From the NCBI RefSeq assembly GCF_014207595.1, contig NZ_JACHGY010000001.1:1550001-1614000 (forward strand): a stretch of DNA of 64,000 nt, written 5' to 3'. Made by a program: the position numbers and the translations under genes. A model generated the notes under the pieces. The model made no database searches. It was given only the letters and a program-made list of their open reading frames with translations, and was not told the origin of the DNA. The DNA is from Algisphaera agarilytica. GTDB lineage: Bacteria > Planctomycetota > Phycisphaerae > Phycisphaerales > Phycisphaeraceae. Of this stretch, positions 6,323-18,810 are shown one piece after another. Each line of letters starts with the position of its first letter. Positions within the stretch are counted from its first letter, which is position 1.

Positions 6323-8542
6323 TCACCAGACCCAACGCGGCTCGCTGACCGGGTGGCCGCTGGCGTCCAGCGGTTCGTCGAGCGCCAGGCCCGCGAGTTC
6401 TCGGCTTTCACGCGAATAGAACCGCAGGTCGGAGAAGTCGTCCTGCCGCAGGATCACCGGCCGCATGAACACAAACAGCGTGTTCTGCGATTCCATGATC
6501 GTTCGGCTGCTGAAGAGGTATTCGAGCACCGGGATCTCGCCGAGCAGCGGCACGCGCTGGATGGTTTCGGAGTAGCTGTCGAAGTTGATGCCGCCGACGA
6601 CGATGGTCGAGCCGTCGGGCAGGGTGACGTGGCTCTCGACGGTGTTGCTCTGCCGCGGCGGGGGCAGGTTGGTCGAGGCGGCGTCGCCGGAGAAGCTTTC
6701 GAGCGCGACACTGAACTCCAGCCGGAGGTGGTCGCCCTCAGCGATGTGCGGGGTCATCTCGATGCTGGTGCCCGCTTCGACAAAGCCTTCGAAGGTGACG
6801 GTGTCGGAGTTCTGGCCCTGGTTGATGCTGGCGACGGGCTGGCCGAGCACGCTGGCGATCGAGCCGGTCTCGTTGTCGTTGACCAGGATGCGCGGTGCCG
6901 AGGCGACGCGGGTGTTGCCGTCGGACTTGAGCGCCTGCACGATGACGTCGGCGATGTCGGCCGAGAGCACCACGCCGTTGAAGCCGAGCGCCGGAGCCAG
7001 ATCGAGTCGGCCGTCGGCGCCGATCTCGTTGAGCCCGAAGCGGTTGAACACGAACGATTGGTTCTCGCCGTTCTGATCCCCCGCGAGGATGTCGACGCCC
7101 AGCGAGAAGTTGTCGGTGGTGTCGAGGGTGATCATGGTCACCTCGATCATGACCTGGGCGCGACGGCGGTCGAGCTCTTCGATGAGCTTGGCGTAGATCG
7201 CCTGGGTCGCGGGCGCGGCGACGACGATGATGCTGTTGGTGTTCTCGTCGGCGGTGAGCGTGGCGTTGGGGGTACGCACAGCCTTGGGGCGTTGGCTGCC
7301 CTCGCCGTCTGCGCCTTCGCCACGCAGGCCAACAACCTCGCGGTTGATCTCTGAGTTTCCTGGAGGAACGTCGCCCAGCTCTCGGCCCAGCGGCAGGATC
7401 GCTCCCACCGCGCCCTCGGCCCCCTCGATCAGGAGGCGGTCCGCGGCGGAGCCGTCGTCTTCCAGACCGCGGATGGTCTCGAGGATGTCGGCCGCGTTGG
7501 CGTTTTTCACCTTGTAAAAACGAACGGGGCTGGCCTGGTCGTCGGTGGCCACGTCGAGCTGTTCGCGGAGCGATTCCACCCGACGGTGTACCGAATCGGG
7601 GGCGGTGAGGATCATGACGCCCGAGGCTGTGTCGACGCTGGACTCGTAGCTCGGGCTCGACACCGACGCGTCGAGCATGCGGCGCATCTGCGTCTCGAAA
7701 CGGTCGGCCGACGTATAGCGGAAACGATACACCCGGGGCATCAGGCCCGAATCGACATCGATGCTTTCAGCAAGCGCCAGCGCGGCCCGCACCTGCGCCT
7801 CGCCGCCGAGCAGCAACACGCGGTTGGCCGGCTCGTCGACGACCACGCCGACGGTGGGTGCGGCCTCGATATCGTCGCCCGCGCCGAGCGCTTGCAAGAG
7901 CATGAGCGACAGGTCTTCCGCCGCCAAATGCTGAACGTTGTAGTACTCGCGCACCTGCGGGCCCGCGGCACCGCGGATCGCTTCGAGCAGGGACTCGATC
8001 CGGCGGACGTTCGCGGCGTAGTCGGTGACGAGCAGGAGCCCGGTCGACGCGTTGGCCGAGACTTTCCCGGCCGAGGGCGTGAGGAACGGCGTCACCAACT
8101 CGCTGGCGGCCTGGGCCGAGAGCCCGTCGAGCAGGAACACCTGCGTGAGCACCCCGCCGCGCTGTTCGTTATCGCCGTCGGCGATGCGCGCTGCCTGCGC
8201 GAGCTCATCGATGCTCACCACACGGTACCAGCCCGCGCGGTCGTCCTCGGCCAGTACCAGGCCCCGGCTACGCAGCACCTCGTCGATCAGGTCACGCAGC
8301 GTATCGGCGGGCACCTGAGCGGGCGACTTGATCGACACCTGCTGGCCACGCACCTTCTCGGGGTCGTAGATGATGTTGAGGTCCAGCCGTTGGCTGGCGA
8401 AATCGAGCAACCGTTCCAGCGGCACCGGGTCGGGCAGATCGAGCTGGATGGTGGTGTCGGGATTGGGCTGGGCCGTGATCGGCGAGACCACGCCCACGGC
8501 GACCAAAACCAACGCCCCAACACATAGCCAGGCACCGCGCAC
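6323..8542 (-). CDS. gspD: Type II secretion secretin GspD
   Basis: Outer-membrane secretin of about 740 residues. After a signal sequence (VRGAWLCVGALVLVAVGVVSPITAQ) come N-domains ('DPEKVRGQQVSIKS', 'VFLLDGLSAQAASELVTPFL', 'YYNVQHLAAEDLSLML', 'RFYKVKNANAADILETI') and the C-terminal secretin domain ('RVASAPRILVNDNETGSIAS', 'GSTIVVGGI', 'VPLLGEIPVLEYLF', 'LFVFMRPVIL'). The frame is open to an ATG at 8713, but that 57-residue extension is AT-rich, not signal-like, and overlaps a promoter-like element; I prefer the GTG at 8542, with TTG codons near 8585 as alternatives. A long N3-type insertion (Gly/Glu/Arg-rich, around EINREVVGLRGEGAD) is present. First gene of the operon. Confidence 0.9.
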   Translation of the reverse strand: MRGAWLCVGALVLVAVGVVSPITAQPNPDTTIQLDLPDPVPLERLLDFASQRLDLNIIYDPEKVRGQQVSIKSPAQVPADTLRDLIDEVLRSRGLVLAEDDRAGWYRVVSIDELAQAARIADGDNEQRGGVLTQVFLLDGLSAQAASELVTPFLTPSAGKVSANASTGLLLVTDYAANVRRIESLLEAIRGAAGPQVREYYNVQHLAAEDLSLMLLQALGAGDDIEAAPTVGVVVDEPANRVLLLGGEAQVRAALALAESIDVDSGLMPRVYRFRYTSADRFETQMRRMLDASVSSPSYESSVDTASGVMILTAPDSVHRRVESLREQLDVATDDQASPVRFYKVKNANAADILETIRGLEDDGSAADRLLIEGAEGAVGAILPLGRELGDVPPGNSEINREVVGLRGEGADGEGSQRPKAVRTPNATLTADENTNSIIVVAAPATQAIYAKLIEELDRRRAQVMIEVTMITLDTTDNFSLGVDILAGDQNGENQSFVFNRFGLNEIGADGRLDLAPALGFNGVVLSADIADVIVQALKSDGNTRVASAPRILVNDNETGSIASVLGQPVASINQGQNSDTVTFEGFVEAGTSIEMTPHIAEGDHLRLEFSVALESFSGDAASTNLPPPRQSNTVESHVTLPDGSTIVVGGINFDSYSETIQRVPLLGEIPVLEYLFSSRTIMESQNTLFVFMRPVILRQDDFSDLRFYSRESRELAGLALDEPLDASGHPVSEPRWVW

Positions 8543-8635
8543 AGTGCCCCGCCAGGAGGTTGGATTGAAACTGGAAATACTCAACAAATAGACGGCTCGG
8601 GCCAAGCGGGAAATACTCCGTTCGGGAACCCAATA

Positions 8636-8663
8636 AGTATATCTCACATTTGCTTTAACCCAA
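8636..8663 (-). promoter_or_regulatory. Candidate sigma-70 type promoter of the secretion operon
   Basis: Read on the minus strand, TTGGGT (8663-8658) and TATACT (8641-8636) are separated by 16 bp. Initiation would fall near 8630, about 90 bp upstream of the preferred gspD start. The flank is clearly richer in A/T than the coding DNA around it. Predicted from sequence only. Confidence 0.4.
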
Positions 8664-8841
8664 ACGTAACTGCAATTTAAATTTGGATTTGCAGCCGAAA
8701 ACCGCGTTTTCATTCTGGCGACTCAGATTTCCCTGAGCGGCCTCACCCAGGAGGCCCGCCAAGGCTCGTCAGCCCGCCAGAATCCGCCGAAGAAACTCGC
8801 CCGGGATACGGGGCGCAAGCCAACGAACCGGGGCCCAGATT

Positions 8842-8911: not shown

Positions 8912-10366
8912 TCAGTTGTTCATGAACCCGAGGTGGGTGCTGGGGGTGTTCACGTCCAGGAACCGGCCGAGGTTCGGGAACATCGTGCCCATCTCCGAGT
9001 TCGGCACGCCCATCCAGCGGGCGAACTCAAACGCGTACTCGTCCACCGAGGTCGTCGGGATGAATCGGCCGCGGGCGGTGTCGTCCGGGCCGTCGATCTC
9101 GATGTTGTTGAACTCGCCGTACATCTTGCCGCCATCGACCTGATTGCCGCCCATCACGAAGTGGTGGCCGCCCCAGCCGTGGTCCGAGCCCTGGCCATTG
9201 GAGTGGTAGGTCCGGCCGAAGTCGGACGCCGTGAACGTCGTCACCGCGTCGCGCTTGTTGATCTCGCCCAGCGCATCCCAGAAGAACTTCAACGCTTCGT
9301 TGACTTCCTGGAGCCGGTTGTCGTGGGGGCCGATCAGCCCGCCGTGGTTGTCGAACCCACCGCGAGAGACGAAGAAGACCTGACGGTTCTGGCCCAGGTG
9401 GGACTGGCCGAACTCGATCATCCGGGCCACGGCGGCGAGCTGCTCGGAAAGGCTGCCGTTGGGCACCGGGGTGGTGATCGCGGAGGGCTGGCCGAAGATA
9501 TTGTTGATGATTTCCCCGTTGTTCAGCGACCGCTCCGCGATGTCGGCGTACACCTTGCCCAGCGCGTTTCGAGCTGAATAGTTGGGGTTGTCTTTCAGGG
9601 CGATGAGGTCGGCGTGGGCCGTGGCGATATCGGCGCGCTGGGTCCCATTCGAGCCCAGCTTGTTGGAGATCGTCAGCCCGGTCGCCCCGGTCCGCCCGAT
9701 CGTGTACGGCGTGACGTCTTTGCCGCTCAAGAAGTAGTTGATGCCGGCGATCGAGATGTTCATCGACACGCCCGAATCGTTCTGCGCCCCGAGCGCTTGC
9801 AGCGAATCAGCGATGCGCCCGCCCCACCCGATGTTCTCCGTCGCGTCGGCGGTCGAGATCTGCCACAGGTCTTGCTGGCTGCTGTGGGAAAACAGCTGGG
9901 GCGGGCGTTCACCGGTTTTATTCTTGAACTGATCTTTCGTGAGCGGCTCGACCAGAGGGCCCATGTTTGCGACGACCGCCAGGTTGCCCTGGTTGAACAG
10001 ATCGGTCATGTCTGTCATCTCCGGGTGGAACGCGAACCGCCGCGTGCCCCCCGCGGGGGTGATGATCGTGTCGTTTAACGAAGACAACGGGATCGCCAGG
10101 TTCGTGCGGTTCGTCACGTAGTCGGCGTGGTACTGATTGCCGCCGTCGATCGGGATCACCGTGTTGCCCGAGTCATTGCCCCCGAACAGGAACATACAGA
10201 CCAAGGCTTTGTAGTCGTTGAAGCCCGAGCCGGTCTGGGCCAACGCCGCACTGGTCGTGCGGAGCGTGAAGAGTTGAGACATCAGGCCGCCCATGCCAAG
10301 CGCTGCACATGAACCACGGCGCAGAAACGAACGGCGGGAGATCAGTCGGTCGAGATTGTCATCCAT
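8912..10366 (-). CDS. DUF1501 family protein with Tat signal (cassette copy A)
   Basis: 484 residues. The N terminus has a twin-arginine signal (SRRSFLRRGSCAALGMGG, cut near ALAQ). The body is a DUF1501/sulfatase-like fold protein of the alkaline phosphatase superfamily: 'FLFGGNDSGNTVIP', 'VVANMGPLVEP', 'DFGRTYHSNGQGSDHGWGGH' and 'GGFDNHGGLIGPHD'. DUF1501 genes regularly follow DUF1800 genes in planctomycetes; the biochemical activity is not known to me. It is the last gene of cassette A, 72 bp after the DUF1800 gene, and a clear paralogue of the gene at 14470-15942. Confidence 0.88.
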   Translation of the reverse strand: MDDNLDRLISRRSFLRRGSCAALGMGGLMSQLFTLRTTSAALAQTGSGFNDYKALVCMFLFGGNDSGNTVIPIDGGNQYHADYVTNRTNLAIPLSSLNDTIITPAGGTRRFAFHPEMTDMTDLFNQGNLAVVANMGPLVEPLTKDQFKNKTGERPPQLFSHSSQQDLWQISTADATENIGWGGRIADSLQALGAQNDSGVSMNISIAGINYFLSGKDVTPYTIGRTGATGLTISNKLGSNGTQRADIATAHADLIALKDNPNYSARNALGKVYADIAERSLNNGEIINNIFGQPSAITTPVPNGSLSEQLAAVARMIEFGQSHLGQNRQVFFVSRGGFDNHGGLIGPHDNRLQEVNEALKFFWDALGEINKRDAVTTFTASDFGRTYHSNGQGSDHGWGGHHFVMGGNQVDGGKMYGEFNNIEIDGPDDTARGRFIPTTSVDEYAFEFARWMGVPNSEMGTMFPNLGRFLDVNTPSTHLGFMNN

Positions 10367-10438: not shown

Positions 10439-11953
10439 TTAATTGATCACCTGGAATTCAGGCGTGGTAATCGTGAGCCAGATCGCGGTCCGGACCCGGT
10501 TGAGGTTGTTGGATTCGGTGCTGATCGTGTTGACGATGATGGCCTTTGCTTCCGGGCTCAACGTGCCGTACATCAGCAGATCGCTGACCTCATCGACCAA
10601 GGCGGACGGGTCGTCCGCGACGGCCTGAAGCGGGGCGTACACGCTGGCTTCCTTATCGCCGGTTTCATCGATGTGGCTGGAAAGCAGGTTGTTGATTACC
10701 GAGAAAATCGAGATGTCTTCGATAATCTGCGCTTCGGGGATGTCGAGCCCGCGCTTATCGAGTCCGGAGTTCACGACCGTGAAGTCCGGCAGGTAGAAGT
10801 TAAAAACCGTGGGCGAGGTCAGATAAGACTGCTTGTAGTCGTTAAAGACACTGTTCTGGTTTTGATCGACGCGCAGGCCGATCTGCTCGCTCGGCTTGTC
10901 CCTCCGGTCCAACACGCGGTAGAGCGCCCACTTGACCAGATAGGGCTCGACGATCTTTCCGAAATAGGGGTTGCTGCTGTACGTGCGGTCTCGAGCTTCG
11001 GGGTCCAGCAGGATCGCCTTTACCACCGCGCCCAAGTCGCCCCGCACCCCGCTGCCGTTGTCCGCAAAGACGTTCGACACACGCTCCACATAAGCCGGCG
11101 TCGGGTTGCTCGTCACCATCCGCTGGATCAGCTGACGGCTGATGAACGGGGGGACGTTCGGGTGGTTGAAAACGTTGTCGATCGCGAAGTTCACGTCGGC
11201 CAAGCCGTTTGCTTCGGTTTCTTCTTCCACCGGACGTGCCGGGATGAAACCGTTGTTCGCCGCGCCGGGGTAGTCCAGCAGCTGCTTGGAGCCGAACTCG
11301 TGACGCCCCACGTCCATGCGCATCGGGTTCGATTCGCGGATCAGGTTTGTTTCACCGATGCTGGATCGGCGTAGCCCGGTGAACACCCGCGCGAACTGCT
11401 GGATCTCGTCGTTGGTGTAGGTCGGGATCGGATCGCCGTTGCTGTCGAGCTTCTGCGTGCCGTCCATGTTCAGTTCAAACAGGCCGATCGAGAACAGCTG
11501 CATGATCTCGCGCGCGTAGTTCTCGTCCGGGCTGGTACCCGCCACCTCGTCTGCCTTGCGGTTGTCGATGTAGGTCAGGTACTTGCCCATCGGGTGGGAG
11601 AAGGTGACATCCGCCAGCAGGTCGCGGTAGTTGCCGAACGCGCGGTCGATCATGAAGTTGTAGTAGCCGCGGCTGGCGGTGATCCCGCTGCCGTCTTCCG
11701 AGTCGTTAATCACCAGGGTCTGGATCAGCGCCCAAGCCATGCGCTGGCGCAGCTGGTCGTTGGCGTCCACCGCGATGTTCGCCCAGGCGTAGCGGTGCAG
11801 TTGCACGGCGCCGTTCTCGGCCGTGTCTGCCAGGTCGATGCGCTCCTGGGTAATCGTCGTGGGCGACCGCGTGATCTGCCAATCGATCCAGCCCTCGTAC
11901 CCGCGGTTGCGGACCTGGTTGATGTCCGCTTGCGAAGGCCCGAACGCGGCCTG
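10439..11953 (-). pseudogene. DUF1800 domain, downstream part of the interrupted copy-A gene
   Basis: This stretch encodes the DUF1800 domain from QAAFGPSQADINQVRNRG to the C-terminal TTPEFQVIN, in the same frame as the 11954-13183 gene and separated from it only by the TGA at 11954-11956. The copy-B protein has Trp-414 at that point (SRFLWQAAFGPSEGD). No frameshift or other stop follows and all landmarks are intact: 'GYEGWIDWQI', 'NYRDLLADVTFSHPMGKYLTY', 'NYAREIMQLFSIGLFELN', 'VFTGLRRSSIG', 'GRHEFGSKQLL' and 'FAIDNVFNHPNVPPFISRQL'. If reinitiated, the first ATG is at 11806, which would lose about 50 conserved residues. Either a young nonsense mutation, a sequencing error or readthrough. Confidence 0.8.
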
Positions 11954-13183
11954 TCAAAGGAACCGGCTCGCGTCGCTCTCCGACGGCGTGGCGTTGATGT
12001 CGAAGCTGCCGTCCGACACCGTGATCGTCAGCGGGATGCTATGGGTTGCCCCGCCCCCGTCCGTTACCTCGAGCGTCGCCTCGTACGTCCCCGCCGACGC
12101 GTACGTGTGGCTCACTTCCGGCCCCGCCGTCGACGTGCTCCCGTCCCCGAAATTCCACGAATACGACGCGATATCCCCTTCATCATCCGACGATCGCGAA
12201 CCATCGAACCCCACCGTCAGCGGCGCGGCGCCCACAAAATTGTCTGCTTCCGCCAACGCCTCCGGCAGCGTGTTCGTCCCCACCGTCAACACGAACGTCT
12301 GCGTCGACGACAACGAGCCGTCCGACACCGTCACGCTCACCGTGGCCGAGCCCGTCTGGCCCGACACCGGCGTCGCCGTGATGTCACGGCTCGACCCAAC
12401 ACCCGAGAAGCCGATGTTCGCCTGCGGGAGTAATGTTGTGTTGTTGCTGGTCGCGCTCACCGTCAACCCGCTCGCTGGCGTGGTGAAGTCGTCGACCACA
12501 AACGCCTGCGTCGCGGCCACGCCTTCCGTCGTGCTCTGGTCCGCCAGGCCCGTCAGCGTCGGAGCGGTGTTGGGCAGGCTTTGGCCGTTACGCGTGGCCG
12601 TGAAGCGGATGTCCGACACGTTGATTGCTTGATTGATGATCAGGTCCTGAACGAAGTTGTTACCCGTGCCCACGTCCTGACCCGAGAACGTCGCCACTTT
12701 ACGGATGTCCGACACGTTCACCACGCGGTTGAGCGTCACGTCGCCCATCAAGAAGCCCAGGGTCCCCTCGACACTCGCCTGCGTCTCGCCTCCGGGCGAC
12801 ACCACATCCGTCAGCGAAATCGTCACCCACTCGCCGTCGGGGATGCCTTCAAGGTGGATCTCAACCGTATCCGCAGACGCGCCGCTCACCCCCGATGCGG
12901 CGCCGATGGTGCCGTGCGTGCTTGACATCCCCCCCACCGACGCCACCGCCTGGTCGAACACAAACAACACCACGCTCTTGCCGTCGCGCGGCCTGCGTGG
13001 CTCCACCCCCCGCGGGCCAGCCAACGGCATGTCGATCGAGTAGACAGCGGTGCTGCCCGAAGCCTGGTGCTCCATCGACGATTGCATCGACGTCGCAACC
13101 GGGGGCGATCCGTGAGCGGTAGAAAACGAAACACAAACCAGCGATGCGCTTAGCCAAACAGTGACGGAACGTGACAAAGCCAT
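11954..13183 (-). CDS. Secreted dockerin-like/PKD protein, N-terminal part of interrupted DUF1800 gene (copy A)
   Basis: 409 residues from MALSRSVTVWLSASLVCVSF (Sec signal, cleavage near THGS). Order of parts: an N-terminal beta domain ('VVLFVFDQAVASVGG' to 'GEWVTISLTDVVSPGG'); a pair of dockerin-like loops, GDVTLNRVVNVSDI and 'QDLIINQAINVSDI', each keeping D1, N5/N6, N9 and D12 of the calcium loop; an Ig/cadherin-like domain ('PTLTGLADQSTTEG'); and a PKD domain ('SYSWNFGDGSTST'). It stops at SRFL-TGA, exactly where DUF1800 should begin. 178 bp downstream of the PEP-CTERM gene of the same cassette. Matches copy B (16036-18810) along the whole length. Confidence 0.85.
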   Translation of the reverse strand: MALSRSVTVWLSASLVCVSFSTAHGSPPVATSMQSSMEHQASGSTAVYSIDMPLAGPRGVEPRRPRDGKSVVLFVFDQAVASVGGMSSTHGTIGAASGVSGASADTVEIHLEGIPDGEWVTISLTDVVSPGGETQASVEGTLGFLMGDVTLNRVVNVSDIRKVATFSGQDVGTGNNFVQDLIINQAINVSDIRFTATRNGQSLPNTAPTLTGLADQSTTEGVAATQAFVVDDFTTPASGLTVSATSNNTTLLPQANIGFSGVGSSRDITATPVSGQTGSATVSVTVSDGSLSSTQTFVLTVGTNTLPEALAEADNFVGAAPLTVGFDGSRSSDDEGDIASYSWNFGDGSTSTAGPEVSHTYASAGTYEATLEVTDGGGATHSIPLTITVSDGSFDINATPSESDASRFL

Positions 13184-13361: not shown

Positions 13362-14009
13362 TCAATCGAGACGTTTTCGCCGGAGGATTGCCGCCATCGC
13401 CGGAAGCGCCAGCAAAGCTGCGGTGGTCGGCTCGGGCACTTCGACGACCTGGAAGCGGTAGGACGAGTCGCCCAAGGCGACATCGTCAAAGGATTCATCG
13501 GCGACGATGCCGGGCGTGTTCCCGCCCACCGCGATTTCATACTCACCCGGCTCCAGCAAGCCCACCTCGAAGGTGTAAGCCGAGAGGAAGATCCGCCCCG
13601 CCGAGGCGTTGCTCAACCCCAAAGTCGCTTGCCCCAGATCGGTTCCCGTATCGCTAAAAAACGAAACGGGGCCAAAGGCATTGTCGAAATTATTAAATGT
13701 CTCGAGAACACTGGCACCTTTGTCACGACCAACCAGCGTCAGCTGAGCCGCCGCGGAAGGCGCAAGCCCCGCCCGGCGGAACTCCAGATCAAAGCCGACA
13801 CCGCCGGTATCGAACGGGGCATCCAAGACAAAAGAGCTGTTCTGCTCATACACCCCCGGCACCGCGTTGCCTGAATCGTCGAAGACCAGGACCGGCTGAG
13901 CAAAGGCGGGGCAGGCCGCAAAACCGGCAATAATCAACAGAGACTTACAACCCGAACGCCAAGTGAATGTGGTGTGTTTATTACGAAAAAGGGCTGAATG
14001 GTGATACAA
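13362..14009 (-). CDS. PEP-CTERM protein with cohesin-like body (copy A)
   Basis: 215 residues starting at a TTG. A consensus AGGAG (14022-14018) lies 8 bp upstream, the same layout as the copy-B gene, which starts with GTG. Signal peptide: SLLIIAGFAACPAFAQ. The body of about 150 residues is beta-rich, with 'GGVGFDLEFRRAG', 'LSAYTFEVGLLEPGEYEIAV' and 'GNTPGIVADESF'; the pattern of a 'GVGFDLEF' strand followed later by a 'LATYVFEV' strand resembles cohesin modules. The C terminus is a PEP-CTERM sorting signal: VPEPTTAALLALPAMA followed by a short hydrophobic helix and RRKR. Exosortase would process it and hold it at the cell surface. Cohesin assignment is inference; the sorting signal is seen directly. 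Confidence 0.82.
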   Translation of the reverse strand: MYHHSALFRNKHTTFTWRSGCKSLLIIAGFAACPAFAQPVLVFDDSGNAVPGVYEQNSSFVLDAPFDTGGVGFDLEFRRAGLAPSAAAQLTLVGRDKGASVLETFNNFDNAFGPVSFFSDTGTDLGQATLGLSNASAGRIFLSAYTFEVGLLEPGEYEIAVGGNTPGIVADESFDDVALGDSSYRFQVVEVPEPTTAALLALPAMAAILRRKRLD

Positions 14010-14469: not shown

Positions 14470-15942
14470 TCAGATGTTCATGAAGCCGAGGTGGGTGCTC
14501 GGGTTGTTCACGTCCAGGAACCGGCCAAGGTTCGGGAACATCGTGCCCATCTCCGAGGTCGGGACACCGATCCAACGGGCAAACTCAAAGGCGTATTCAT
14601 CGACCGAAGTGGTCGGGATGAATCGGCCATTGCCGGTGTCTTCTGGTCCGCCGATGGCGATGTTGCCGTAGTCGCCGTACATCTTGCCGCCGTCGACCTG
14701 GGTTCCGCCCATGACAAAGTGGTGGCCGCCCCAGCCGTGGTCCGAGCCGTTGCCGTTGGAGCGGTAGGTCCGGCCGAAGTCGGAGGCGGTGAAGGTGGTC
14801 ACGTCGTCACGGCGGTTGAGCAAGCCCAGAGCGTCCCAGAAATACTTCAGGGCGTCGTTCACCCGGGCGAGGTTGTCGTCGTGCGGGCCGATGAGGCCGT
14901 TGTGGTTATCGAAGCCGCCAAGAGACACGAAGAAGACCTGGCGGTTTTGGCCGAGGATGCTGGGGCCCGATTCGATCAGGCGGGCGACGGCACCGAGCTG
15001 GGCGGCAAGCGAGTTGCCGTCGGGCACGGCAAGGTTACGCAGCACCGAGTCGCCGGTGTTGGGGTCTTGGCGGGCGTCGATGCTCGAGATGATGTCTTCG
15101 TTCCGGAGAGCCCGTCCGGCGACGTCGGCATAAGCCTTGCTCAGTTCGTTACGGGCGGAATAATTCGGGTTACCTTGAAGGGCGATCAGGTCGGCGTAGG
15201 CATTGGCGATGATCTCCCGGTCCGAGGTGGAACCCAACGCGGTGGTGTCCAGTCCGATCGCGCCGTTGGGCGAGACGGCATAAGGCGTGACCTGGTTTCC
15301 GGTAAGGAAATAGTTCGAACCGGCGATCGAGATGTTCATCGACACACCCGAGTCGTTCTGCGCCCCCAGCGCCTGCAGCGAGTCGGCGATGCGCCCACCC
15401 CAACCGATCCGCCCGATGGCGTCGGCGGTCGAGATCTGCCACAGCTCCTGCTGAGTGTTGTGGGCGAAGAGCTGCGGAGGCAGGGCCACGCTCCGGTTCT
15501 GGTACTGAGTCAGCGTGGTCGGTTCGACGAGAGAACCGGCGTTGGCCACGACCGCCATGTTGCCCTGGTTGAACAGGTTGTGCACGTCGGTGAGTTGCGG
15601 GTGGAAAGCGAACTGGCGTGTGCTGCCTGCGGGGGTGAACGTGGTCGCGTTCAGGCTGTTTAGCGGGATCGCCAAACCGGTCCGCCCCGCGGCGTAGTCG
15701 GAGTAGTTCTGATTGCCGCCGCTGATCGGGATAATCGTGTTGCCGGCATCGTTACCGCCGAACAGAAAGACGCAGACCAACGCCTTGTAATCGCTGAACC
15801 CGCCGCCGCTCTGGGCCAAGGCCGCGCTGGTCATCCGCAGGTTAAACAGCTGCGACATCAAACCACCAATACCCAAAGCCGCACAAGAGCCACGACGCAA
15901 CAGTGAGCGGCGCGAGATCAGGTTGTCGAGATTGTCATCCAT
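14470..15942 (-). CDS. DUF1501 family protein with Tat signal (cassette copy B)
   Basis: 490 residues and collinear with 8912-10366 over its full length (MDDNLDNLISRRSLLRRGSCA against MDDNLDRLISRRSFLRRGSCA). Tat signal, then 'VCVFLFGGNDAGNTIIP', 'GGFDNHNGLIGPHDDN' and 'DFGRTYRSNGNGSDHGWGGH'. An extra segment near residue 290 (DARQDPNTGDSVLRN) distinguishes it from copy A. Exported folded through Tat and probably retained at the envelope with the DUF1800 product. It starts 93 bp after the DUF1800 gene. Confidence 0.88.
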   Translation of the reverse strand: MDDNLDNLISRRSLLRRGSCAALGIGGLMSQLFNLRMTSAALAQSGGGFSDYKALVCVFLFGGNDAGNTIIPISGGNQNYSDYAAGRTGLAIPLNSLNATTFTPAGSTRQFAFHPQLTDVHNLFNQGNMAVVANAGSLVEPTTLTQYQNRSVALPPQLFAHNTQQELWQISTADAIGRIGWGGRIADSLQALGAQNDSGVSMNISIAGSNYFLTGNQVTPYAVSPNGAIGLDTTALGSTSDREIIANAYADLIALQGNPNYSARNELSKAYADVAGRALRNEDIISSIDARQDPNTGDSVLRNLAVPDGNSLAAQLGAVARLIESGPSILGQNRQVFFVSLGGFDNHNGLIGPHDDNLARVNDALKYFWDALGLLNRRDDVTTFTASDFGRTYRSNGNGSDHGWGGHHFVMGGTQVDGGKMYGDYGNIAIGGPEDTGNGRFIPTTSVDEYAFEFARWIGVPTSEMGTMFPNLGRFLDVNNPSTHLGFMNI

Positions 15943-16035: not shown

Positions 16036-18810
16036 TCAATTCACCAACTGGAATTCCGGAGAAGAAACGACCATGTAAACCATCGCCCGGACCCGTTCGG
16101 TCTGGTTGGCCACCCGTGGGGCGACGGTCAAAAGGATCTGCTTCATCTCAGGACTCATCGTGCCGTACATCAACAGATCATCGATCGCCTCGATCAGGGC
16201 GGTGTTGTTGGTCACATTGTTCGAGGGGATCAGCGCCCGAAGATCGTCGTAAACGTTGGCCTCGTCATCCCCACTCTCCGCAATGCTGTTGCGGCGGTGG
16301 TCGTTGAGGCTGGAGAACACGGTGATCTCGTTGGTGATCTGGAGCTCGGGAATATCAAGCGTTCTGCGGTCCAACTCGCTGTTGGCCACGGTGTAATCCG
16401 GGAGGTAGAAGTTGAAAACCGAGGGCGAGGTCATGTAGGCCTGGCCGAATTTGTCTGTTTCGCCAAACTGCAATTCATCCACACGGAGGCCAAACGGCTG
16501 GCCGGGCCGGTCGTAGCGGTCCAACACGCGGTACAACGACCACTTCAACAGGAAGGGCTCGATGATCTTGCCGAAATACGGGCTGCTGCTGTAGGTGCGG
16601 TCGCGGGCCTCGGGGTCGAGGAGGATCGCTTTGACCACTGCACCCAGGTTGCCCCGCGTGCCGGTGCCGTCATCGACAAAGACCGAAGCGACACGCTCGA
16701 CGTAGGCGGGCGTCGGGTTGCTGGTCACCAACCGCTGGATCAGCAGGTGGCTGATGAACGGCGGCGTATTGGGGTGATTGAAAACATTGTCGATCGCAAA
16801 GTTGACGTCGGCGATGCCGTTGGCGTCGGTCTGCTGGCCGCTGCCGCGAGCGGGGATGTACCCGCCGTTAACCGCACCCGGGTAGTTCAACAACTGCTTA
16901 TCGCCGAACTCGTGCCAGCTGGACTGCATCCGCATGGGATTGGCGGTCCGTTGTTCAAAGTTTGAGCCGATGTTCGATGTTCGAAGACCCGTAAACACCC
17001 GGGCAAATTGAACGATGTCTTCATTGGTGTAGGTGGGGATCGGGTTGCCTTGAGCGTCTTTCTTCTGGGTGCCGTCGAGGTTCAGCTCAAAAAGTCCGAT
17101 CGAAAACAGCTGCTTGATCTCACGCGCGTAGTTTTCGTCCGGGACGGTCCCCGCAGCAGGGTCCGCTTTCCGGTTGTCACGGTAGGTGAGGTAGTTCCCC
17201 ATGGGGTAGGAAAAGGTCACATCGCTGAGCAGGTCGCGGTAGTTCCCAAACGCATTCTCGAGCATGAAGTTGTAGTACCCACGACTGGCGCTGGGCCCAG
17301 CGCTGTCCTGGTCGTTGTTCATGACAAAGATCTGGATCAGCGCCCACGCCACGCGTTGACGCAGTTGATCCTGCGCATCGACCGCGAGGTTCGCAAAGGC
17401 AAACCGCTGCTGGAAGACCTGGCCCGCCCCGTTGCGCGTGGCCGCCTGGTCAAACATCTGCTGCGTGAGCAGCGTCGGCGAAAGCGCCATCTGTTGATCG
17501 ATCCAGCCCTCATAGCCAAGGGCCTGAACATCGGCGACATCGCCTTCGCTCGGGCCGAAGGCCGCCTGCCACAGGAACCGGCTGGCGTCGTTGGCCGAGG
17601 GCGTTGCGTTGACGTTGAATGTGCCGTCGGAGACGGTGATGACGTACTCGATTTCATCTGTATCCCCGGTGAAATCATCGACGGTGAGCTTCGCGGTGTA
17701 GGTCCCGGGCTGGGTATAGGTGTGGGTTAGTTTTGAGCCGGGGAAACCAGCTCCGTCGCCGAAATCCCATGCATACGACAAGATCCCATCGTCTGGATCG
17801 AACGACCGCGTTCCGTCCAACTCTACCGTCAACGGCGCAGGGCCCAGGAAATTCTTGACATACGCAAGGGCTTGAGGAGGCTGGTTGCTTGCTTCCTCGG
17901 TAACCGAAACGATATAGGACGCGGTGGAGCTCATCGAGCCATCCGACACCGTCAGCGTGATGATTGCCGATCCGACCTCGCCGGGCTCGGGGGTCACGAC
18001 CACACTACGGTTCGACCCGGAACCTGTCACCACGATGTTCGCATCGGTCACGACGCCAGGGTTATCCGACACCGCGGTGACCGCCAGCGAATCTGCGGGC
18101 GTGGCGAAGTCATCCACAACAAACGACAACGCCGCGGTGGGGGTATTGATAACAGTGGATTGATTGGTGAGCCCAACGATGGTCGGCGCGGTGTTGGGAA
18201 GGCTCCGGCCGTTCCGTGACGCGGCGAAACGGATATCCGAAACATTGATGGCGTTGTTGATGGTCAGGTCTTGAACAAAGTTGCCGCCCACGCTGGGGTC
18301 CTGGCCGGAGAAGGTGGCCACCTTGCGGATGTCCGAAACGTTCACCACACGGTTGAACGTGACATCGCCCAGCAGGTAGCCGACGGTGCCCGCGGCACTC
18401 GGCAGGGTCTCGCCGCCCTGGGAGACGATGTCGGTCAACGAAACCGTGACCCATTCCGCATCCGGGACGCCATTGAGGTGAACCGCGATGGTGTCGGGGA
18501 ACTGGGTGCGGACACCGGAAATGGCCGAGTTGATCGTGCCGTGGGATGTCGCGATGTTCCCGACCGACTGGAGGGCTTGATCGAATACAAAGATCACAAC
18601 GGTCTCGCCGTCGCGGTGCATTCGGGGCTCGATCGCTCGTGGCCCGGAGAGGGGCATGTCGATCGCGCGGTAGATGCTCGAACCATTGGAAGCCAGGTGC
18701 CTCAACTCCGAACGGGTCGAGGTGTTAACCGGCGGGGCAGCGATCGCGGGGAGCGAAACGCAGATCAGCAATACGCTTAGCCAAGCAAAATACCGACGAG
18801 ACAGGGGCAT
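16036..18810 (-). CDS. Secreted dockerin-like/PKD/DUF1800 protein (copy B, intact)
   Basis: 924 residues from MPLSRRYFAWLSVLLICVSL; the frame is open upstream, but the signal peptide and the parallel with copy A (MALSRSVTVW) fix this start. Order: N-terminal beta domain (about 50-150), dockerin-like pair (GDVTFNRVVNVSDI and 'QDLTINNAINVSDI', aligning base for base with the type I loop GDVNGDGKVNSTDL), Ig/cadherin-like domain, PKD ('LSYAWDFGDGAGFPG'), then DUF1800 from about 410 to the end (Trp-414 in SRFLWQAAFG, 'DENYAREIKQLFSIGLFELN'). The dockerin-like part suggests it docks on a cohesin-like partner, plausibly the PEP-CTERM protein encoded 191 bp upstream. The role of DUF1800 is unknown. 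Confidence 0.88.
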   Translation of the reverse strand: MPLSRRYFAWLSVLLICVSLPAIAAPPVNTSTRSELRHLASNGSSIYRAIDMPLSGPRAIEPRMHRDGETVVIFVFDQALQSVGNIATSHGTINSAISGVRTQFPDTIAVHLNGVPDAEWVTVSLTDIVSQGGETLPSAAGTVGYLLGDVTFNRVVNVSDIRKVATFSGQDPSVGGNFVQDLTINNAINVSDIRFAASRNGRSLPNTAPTIVGLTNQSTVINTPTAALSFVVDDFATPADSLAVTAVSDNPGVVTDANIVVTGSGSNRSVVVTPEPGEVGSAIITLTVSDGSMSSTASYIVSVTEEASNQPPQALAYVKNFLGPAPLTVELDGTRSFDPDDGILSYAWDFGDGAGFPGSKLTHTYTQPGTYTAKLTVDDFTGDTDEIEYVITVSDGTFNVNATPSANDASRFLWQAAFGPSEGDVADVQALGYEGWIDQQMALSPTLLTQQMFDQAATRNGAGQVFQQRFAFANLAVDAQDQLRQRVAWALIQIFVMNNDQDSAGPSASRGYYNFMLENAFGNYRDLLSDVTFSYPMGNYLTYRDNRKADPAAGTVPDENYAREIKQLFSIGLFELNLDGTQKKDAQGNPIPTYTNEDIVQFARVFTGLRTSNIGSNFEQRTANPMRMQSSWHEFGDKQLLNYPGAVNGGYIPARGSGQQTDANGIADVNFAIDNVFNHPNTPPFISHLLIQRLVTSNPTPAYVERVASVFVDDGTGTRGNLGAVVKAILLDPEARDRTYSSSPYFGKIIEPFLLKWSLYRVLDRYDRPGQPFGLRVDELQFGETDKFGQAYMTSPSVFNFYLPDYTVANSELDRRTLDIPELQITNEITVFSSLNDHRRNSIAESGDDEANVYDDLRALIPSNNVTNNTALIEAIDDLLMYGTMSPEMKQILLTVAPRVANQTERVRAMVYMVVSSPEFQLVN

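Follow-up and report, generated by a model that had tools for sequence, protein, structure and literature searches.

Introduction

The closest described counterpart of the gene analysed here is a tandem duplicate that has become a young nonsense pseudogene, in which one in-frame stop interrupts an otherwise open frame and an intact paralogue adjoins. Belinky et al. (2021, PMC7918605) describe a widespread occurrence of in-frame stops in bacterial genes whose dN/dS is below 1; TGA is among the classes treated and the focus is on stops common to orthologous genes of at least two species, in order to limit artefacts. In Escherichia coli, readthrough of UGA mostly inserts tryptophan (PMC11126739); basal readthrough of this kind is also covered in PMC5373646.

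We have analysed a window of 64,000 nucleotides from Algisphaera agarilytica (class Phycisphaerae, contig NZ_JACHGY010000001.1, positions 1,550,001 to 1,614,000), in which a gene designated copy A is interrupted by an in-frame TGA. Copy A shares with young nonsense pseudogenes the lone stop, the open frame and the adjoining intact paralogue, but differs from them in the absence of clear decay, and is strictly a candidate for that class. It is like the stops described by Belinky et al. (PMC7918605) in having constrained flanks within a bacterial gene; unlike their shared stops, its stop is found in one genome only. Basal readthrough in E. coli, as described in the papers cited above, concerns the same codon, and the residue usually misincorporated there is the one lost in copy A, whereas the copy A context has no element shown to raise the rate and the gene is known here from sequence alone. 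Searches of the literature on A. agarilytica, and on tRNA arrays with RtcB and HNH genes, yielded nothing on the copy A gene.

An in-frame TGA in one of two tandem PKD-DUF1800 genes

Copy A is a 915-codon frame on the minus strand (13183-10439). The plus strand reads TCA at window positions 11954-11956, giving TGA on the minus strand within the sequence AGC CGG TTC CTT TGA CAG GCC, and the whole-genome searches flag the gene as containing '1 TGA'. As the open reading frame 13183-11954 encodes 409 amino acids, the stop is codon 410. The window letters and the list of open reading frames thus bear out the original prediction on this point. They also agree with its description of the frame as otherwise intact: the only further stop is codon 915 (TAA at 10439-10441), and copy A aligns with the neighbouring copy B free of frameshifts.

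The part before the stop (11957-13183, minus strand, 409 amino acids) contains a PKD domain together with an Ig-like match that falls just short of its cut-off, and its hydrophobic N-terminus looks like a signal peptide. A dockerin domain had also been proposed for this part, and was listed in copy A neither by the Pfam search (E up to 10) nor by the NCBIfam search (E up to 1). Past the stop, an open frame of 504 codons plus TAA (10439-11953, minus strand) by itself matches Pfam DUF1800 (PF08811) over profile positions 5-419 of 419, with an E value of 2e-74 and a score of 251.7 bits against a curated cut-off of 26.1. A frame of this length with such a family match rules out chance.

Downstream of copy A, separated from it by 72 bases, lies a DUF1501 gene that is intact (8912-10366, minus strand, 484 amino acids). 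A second pair of the same kind lies upstream of copy A, and consists of copy B (16036-18810, minus strand), a PKD-DUF1800 gene that has no interruption, and its own intact DUF1501 gene (14470-15942, minus strand, 490 amino acids). Copies A and B have 57.6% identity in the pre-stop part and 64.2% in the post-stop part; the two DUF1501 genes agree at 354 of 482 positions (73.4% identity). At the codon homologous to the stop, the letters of copy B read CTG TGG CAG, which confirms the predicted Trp-414 (numbered from the copy B ATG). A PEP-CTERM-type gene (13362-14009) is situated between the two pairs. On the other side of the copy A pair is a secretin gene (6323-8713, minus strand), whose best match, type II GspD, reaches 285.8 bits where the curated cut-off is 351.35. 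A third PKD-DUF1800/DUF1501 pair is present elsewhere in the genome (L003:4-3477), its DUF1501-like member being known by alignment only.

The residue at the stop position in relatives

The position of codon 410 was compared across 79 loci, nine of which did not cover it. Duplicates among the 70 covering loci were merged by hand (copy A, copy B and the third own-genome paralogue from three entries each to one, and a metagenome-assembled genome (MAG) of Algisphaera from two to one), leaving 63 distinct loci including copy A. All 62 others have a sense codon at this position. The nearest relatives, namely copy B, the third paralogue and the Algisphaera MAG (L012), do carry the tryptophan that had been called conserved, within RFLWQAAFG. 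Across the family the term does not hold, as tryptophan occurs in only five of the 62 loci and the remaining 57 have asparagine (28), glutamate (10), threonine (9), glutamine, histidine, alanine or serine (2 each), isoleucine (1) or aspartate (1). The tryptophan is a local rather than a family-wide feature, and the position is tolerant.

A survey of the class found DUF1800 matches in 139 of 298 genomes. None of the 150 matches listed from these 298 genomes contained an internal stop; those listed are the stronger matches, and weaker ones, including that of copy A itself, lie outside the set. Copy A therefore has a stop where its relatives have a sense codon, which is what defines a nonsense-mutated gene, and an orthologous stop, which would mark conserved readthrough, was seen neither at the 62 loci nor among the 150 matches listed.

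Constraint beyond the stop and age of the lesion

Comparison of copies A and B gave dN/dS ratios of 0.311 before the stop and 0.274 after it. As synonymous distances are about 1 for this pair and larger in several others, all such ratios are rough. GC content at third positions is likewise similar on the two sides (0.83 before the stop, 0.85 after it). Replacements unique to one copy in the post-stop part were not significantly more frequent in copy A, whether the outgroup was the Algisphaera MAG (47 in A, 38 in B, chi-square 0.95) or the third own-genome paralogue (31 and 27, chi-square 0.28). Sites at which the remaining three sequences agree show eight departures in copy A and nine in copy B. 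The post-stop ratios to the two outgroups are slightly higher for copy A than for copy B (0.224 versus 0.175, and 0.757 versus 0.545), which could reflect mild relaxation or noise. The DUF1501 partner of copy A has no acceleration (20 versus 18). Judged from these comparisons, the post-stop part appears to be as constrained as the pre-stop part, with no clear decay.

About 2.7-2.9% of random substitutions in the post-stop part would create a stop. That these 504 codons contain no second stop therefore limits neutral divergence to about 0.07 substitutions per site or less (95%) under simple substitution models, and to 0.02-0.03 if frameshift indels are included at assumed rates; synonymous divergence between copies A and B is about 0.52 per lineage. 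A far side that is constrained and has no second lesion means that the lesion is recent, that the far side is in use, or that the base is wrong, and the data fit all three.

We consider it likely that copy A carries a very recent, possibly leaky nonsense mutation in one member of a tandem duplicate, with the intact copy B adjoining. A single change in a tryptophan codon at the start of DUF1800 would have created UGA very recently, by a G to A transition if the ancestor had TGG, as copy B has. The suggestion that the mutation is recent follows, within this single genome, from the absence of further lesions. Most ribosomes reaching the UGA would be expected to terminate via RF2, releasing a 409-residue PKD protein that lacks DUF1800. 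A trace of full-length protein, with the original residue restored, might still arise if tRNA-Trp misreads UGA in the ordinary way; low basal readthrough of this kind is possible. Loss of the copy A product would probably be tolerable thanks to the intact copy B next door. Two observations count against a recent mutation: an undecayed far side is also expected of a readthrough product that is used, and the stop lies within the first residues of DUF1800, near its junction with PKD, as it would in a switch separating the two domains.

Possible artefact or functional truncation

The gene may instead be intact in nature, the TGA being a wrong base from sequencing or assembly, or a variant fixed in culture. 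We regard such an artefact as rather unlikely. It agrees with a frame that is open and constrained everywhere else, and with the standing of this stop as the sole interruption in the own-genome families checked, where internal stops were found in one of five DUF1800 matches (copy A alone) and in none of 55 matches to ABC_tran, counted over that domain only. Internal stops are, however, not in excess among those matches, and the assembly looks good, with 4,170,210 bases in six contigs (main contig 4,101,647 bases), completeness of 99.75% and contamination of 1.07%. Moreover, there is nothing unusual about a real mutation that consists of a single transition. One in-frame nonsense codon in a genome of 4.17 Mb is unsurprising by itself.

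It is improbable that the truncation is in use, with copy A working as the 409-residue PKD protein and copy B supplying the DUF1800 domain that copy A has shed. The site of the stop near the domain junction leaves the upstream domains complete, and the pre-stop part is under constraint (0.31 between A and B). The far side is equally constrained (0.27), though, so any such change would be too recent to have left a mark. Nor was this position the only one available, as copy A has nine other tryptophan codons and 48 of its 915 codons are one transition away from a stop.

Readthrough and UGA decoding

The original prediction had also raised readthrough that sets a ratio between a free form and the full protein. 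Selected readthrough at this stop is unlikely, and we think it very improbable that UGA is read as tryptophan often enough for a free PKD form and a full PKD-DUF1800 form both to be maintained by selection. Maintained readthrough would be favoured by the constraint past the stop and by two features of the sequence: TGAC counts as a weak terminator in E. coli, and the RF2 frameshift site has CTT TGA C as its core. On the other side, TGAC closes 15 of 104 TGA-ended long open reading frames sampled in this genome, and the homologues listed above contain no stop at this position. In published work, UGA is the leakiest E. coli stop and mostly read as tryptophan, accuracy is lowered by a following G, not C (PMC11126739), and stops with dN/dS below 1 have precedent in bacterial genes (PMC7918605). 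Folding of the RNA past the stop gave z scores of -0.5 to -2.2 against simple base shuffles, compared with -0.6 to -1.8 for copy B, and thus no convincing stimulatory structure.

Dedicated decoding machinery did not emerge from the searches of the genome. Seven matches to SelB were all below cut-off (best 182 bits versus 242.25). The search for tRNA-Sec gave 11 matches, one of them barely above the gathering score (47.8 versus 47 bits) in a search that also exceeded its cut-off in 5 of 14 controls, and ARAGORN typed this match as tRNA-Ser(tga). A selenoprotein reading of copy A was rejected on these grounds. Anticodon TCA is absent from the 73 tRNA genes typed, two of which are tRNA-Trp(CCA), and RF2 (prfB) is present (400.9 bits, cut-off 370, no internal stop in the match). 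In a sample of 464 kb, made up of the 64 kb window and 400 kb from elsewhere, TGA is the commonest stop of 208 long open reading frames (104, against 66 TAA and 38 TAG). Reassignment of UGA to tryptophan (codes 4/25) was rejected accordingly.

Two other routes to DUF1800 were considered and discarded. An RF2-like +1 frameshift has its core motif in copy A in common with the programmed site of prfB, but the homology sits in frame 0; the +1 frame, which bears no relation to DUF1800, stops after about 80 codons. Copy A also lacks, unlike prfB, a purine-rich element immediately preceding CTT; by eye, a GGAGAG can be made out about 16 bases before it. Re-initiation would have to use, as the first in-frame start, a GTG at 11806, 50 codons past the stop and with no Shine-Dalgarno sequence obvious by eye. 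A codon-usage scan for interrupted genes over the 464 kb lacked discrimination, with copy A in 81st place among 1363 scored stops; at several of the highest-ranked stops a start codon follows directly, as in ordinary neighbouring genes. The scan contributes here only the stop-codon counts given above.

A tRNA array with a second tRNA-Trp

In about 8.6 kb of the genome (G000:C1:2039855-2048440, locus L138), 28 tRNA genes form an array that is interspersed with genes for an HNH endonuclease, an RtcB RNA ligase and a porphyranase-like protein. The count is that of ARAGORN; the RF00005 search gave 27, counted by hand. In outline the array resembles the 26-gene trn operon of Anabaena, which is reported to be induced by translational stress (PMC10272220). 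Its tRNA-Trp(CCA) gene, the second in the genome (L138:7864-7938), has a C28-C42 mismatch in the anticodon stem as well as an acceptor-stem mismatch, whereas five good pairs make up the anticodon stem of the main copy. Such anticodon-stem mismatches are common in this genome, occurring in 6 of the 25 array tRNAs and 6 of the 44 other tRNAs with a parsed stem (4 of the 73 tRNAs had none). In PMC13092985 (2026), unpinning the top pair (position 27) of overexpressed E. coli tRNA-Trp raised UGA readthrough about 2.5-fold; the same text cites an in vitro study in which a change at position 27 alone did not raise it, and the mismatch in the array tRNA-Trp is at position 28 instead. That the array tRNA-Trp is induced by stress and misreads UGA as tryptophan, and that copy A would then yield its DUF1800 domain under such conditions only, is speculation to which we attach very little probability.

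Implications

Among the three options originally offered, a young nonsense mutation agrees with all the tests carried out and an error is compatible with them, while readthrough setting a ratio of two forms gained no positive support. If copy A is a young nonsense allele, its history would be one of routine gene loss, buffered by the tandem copy. Full-length copy A protein, if made, would matter more, because the stop separates two domains and the residue most commonly inserted at UGA is the original one.
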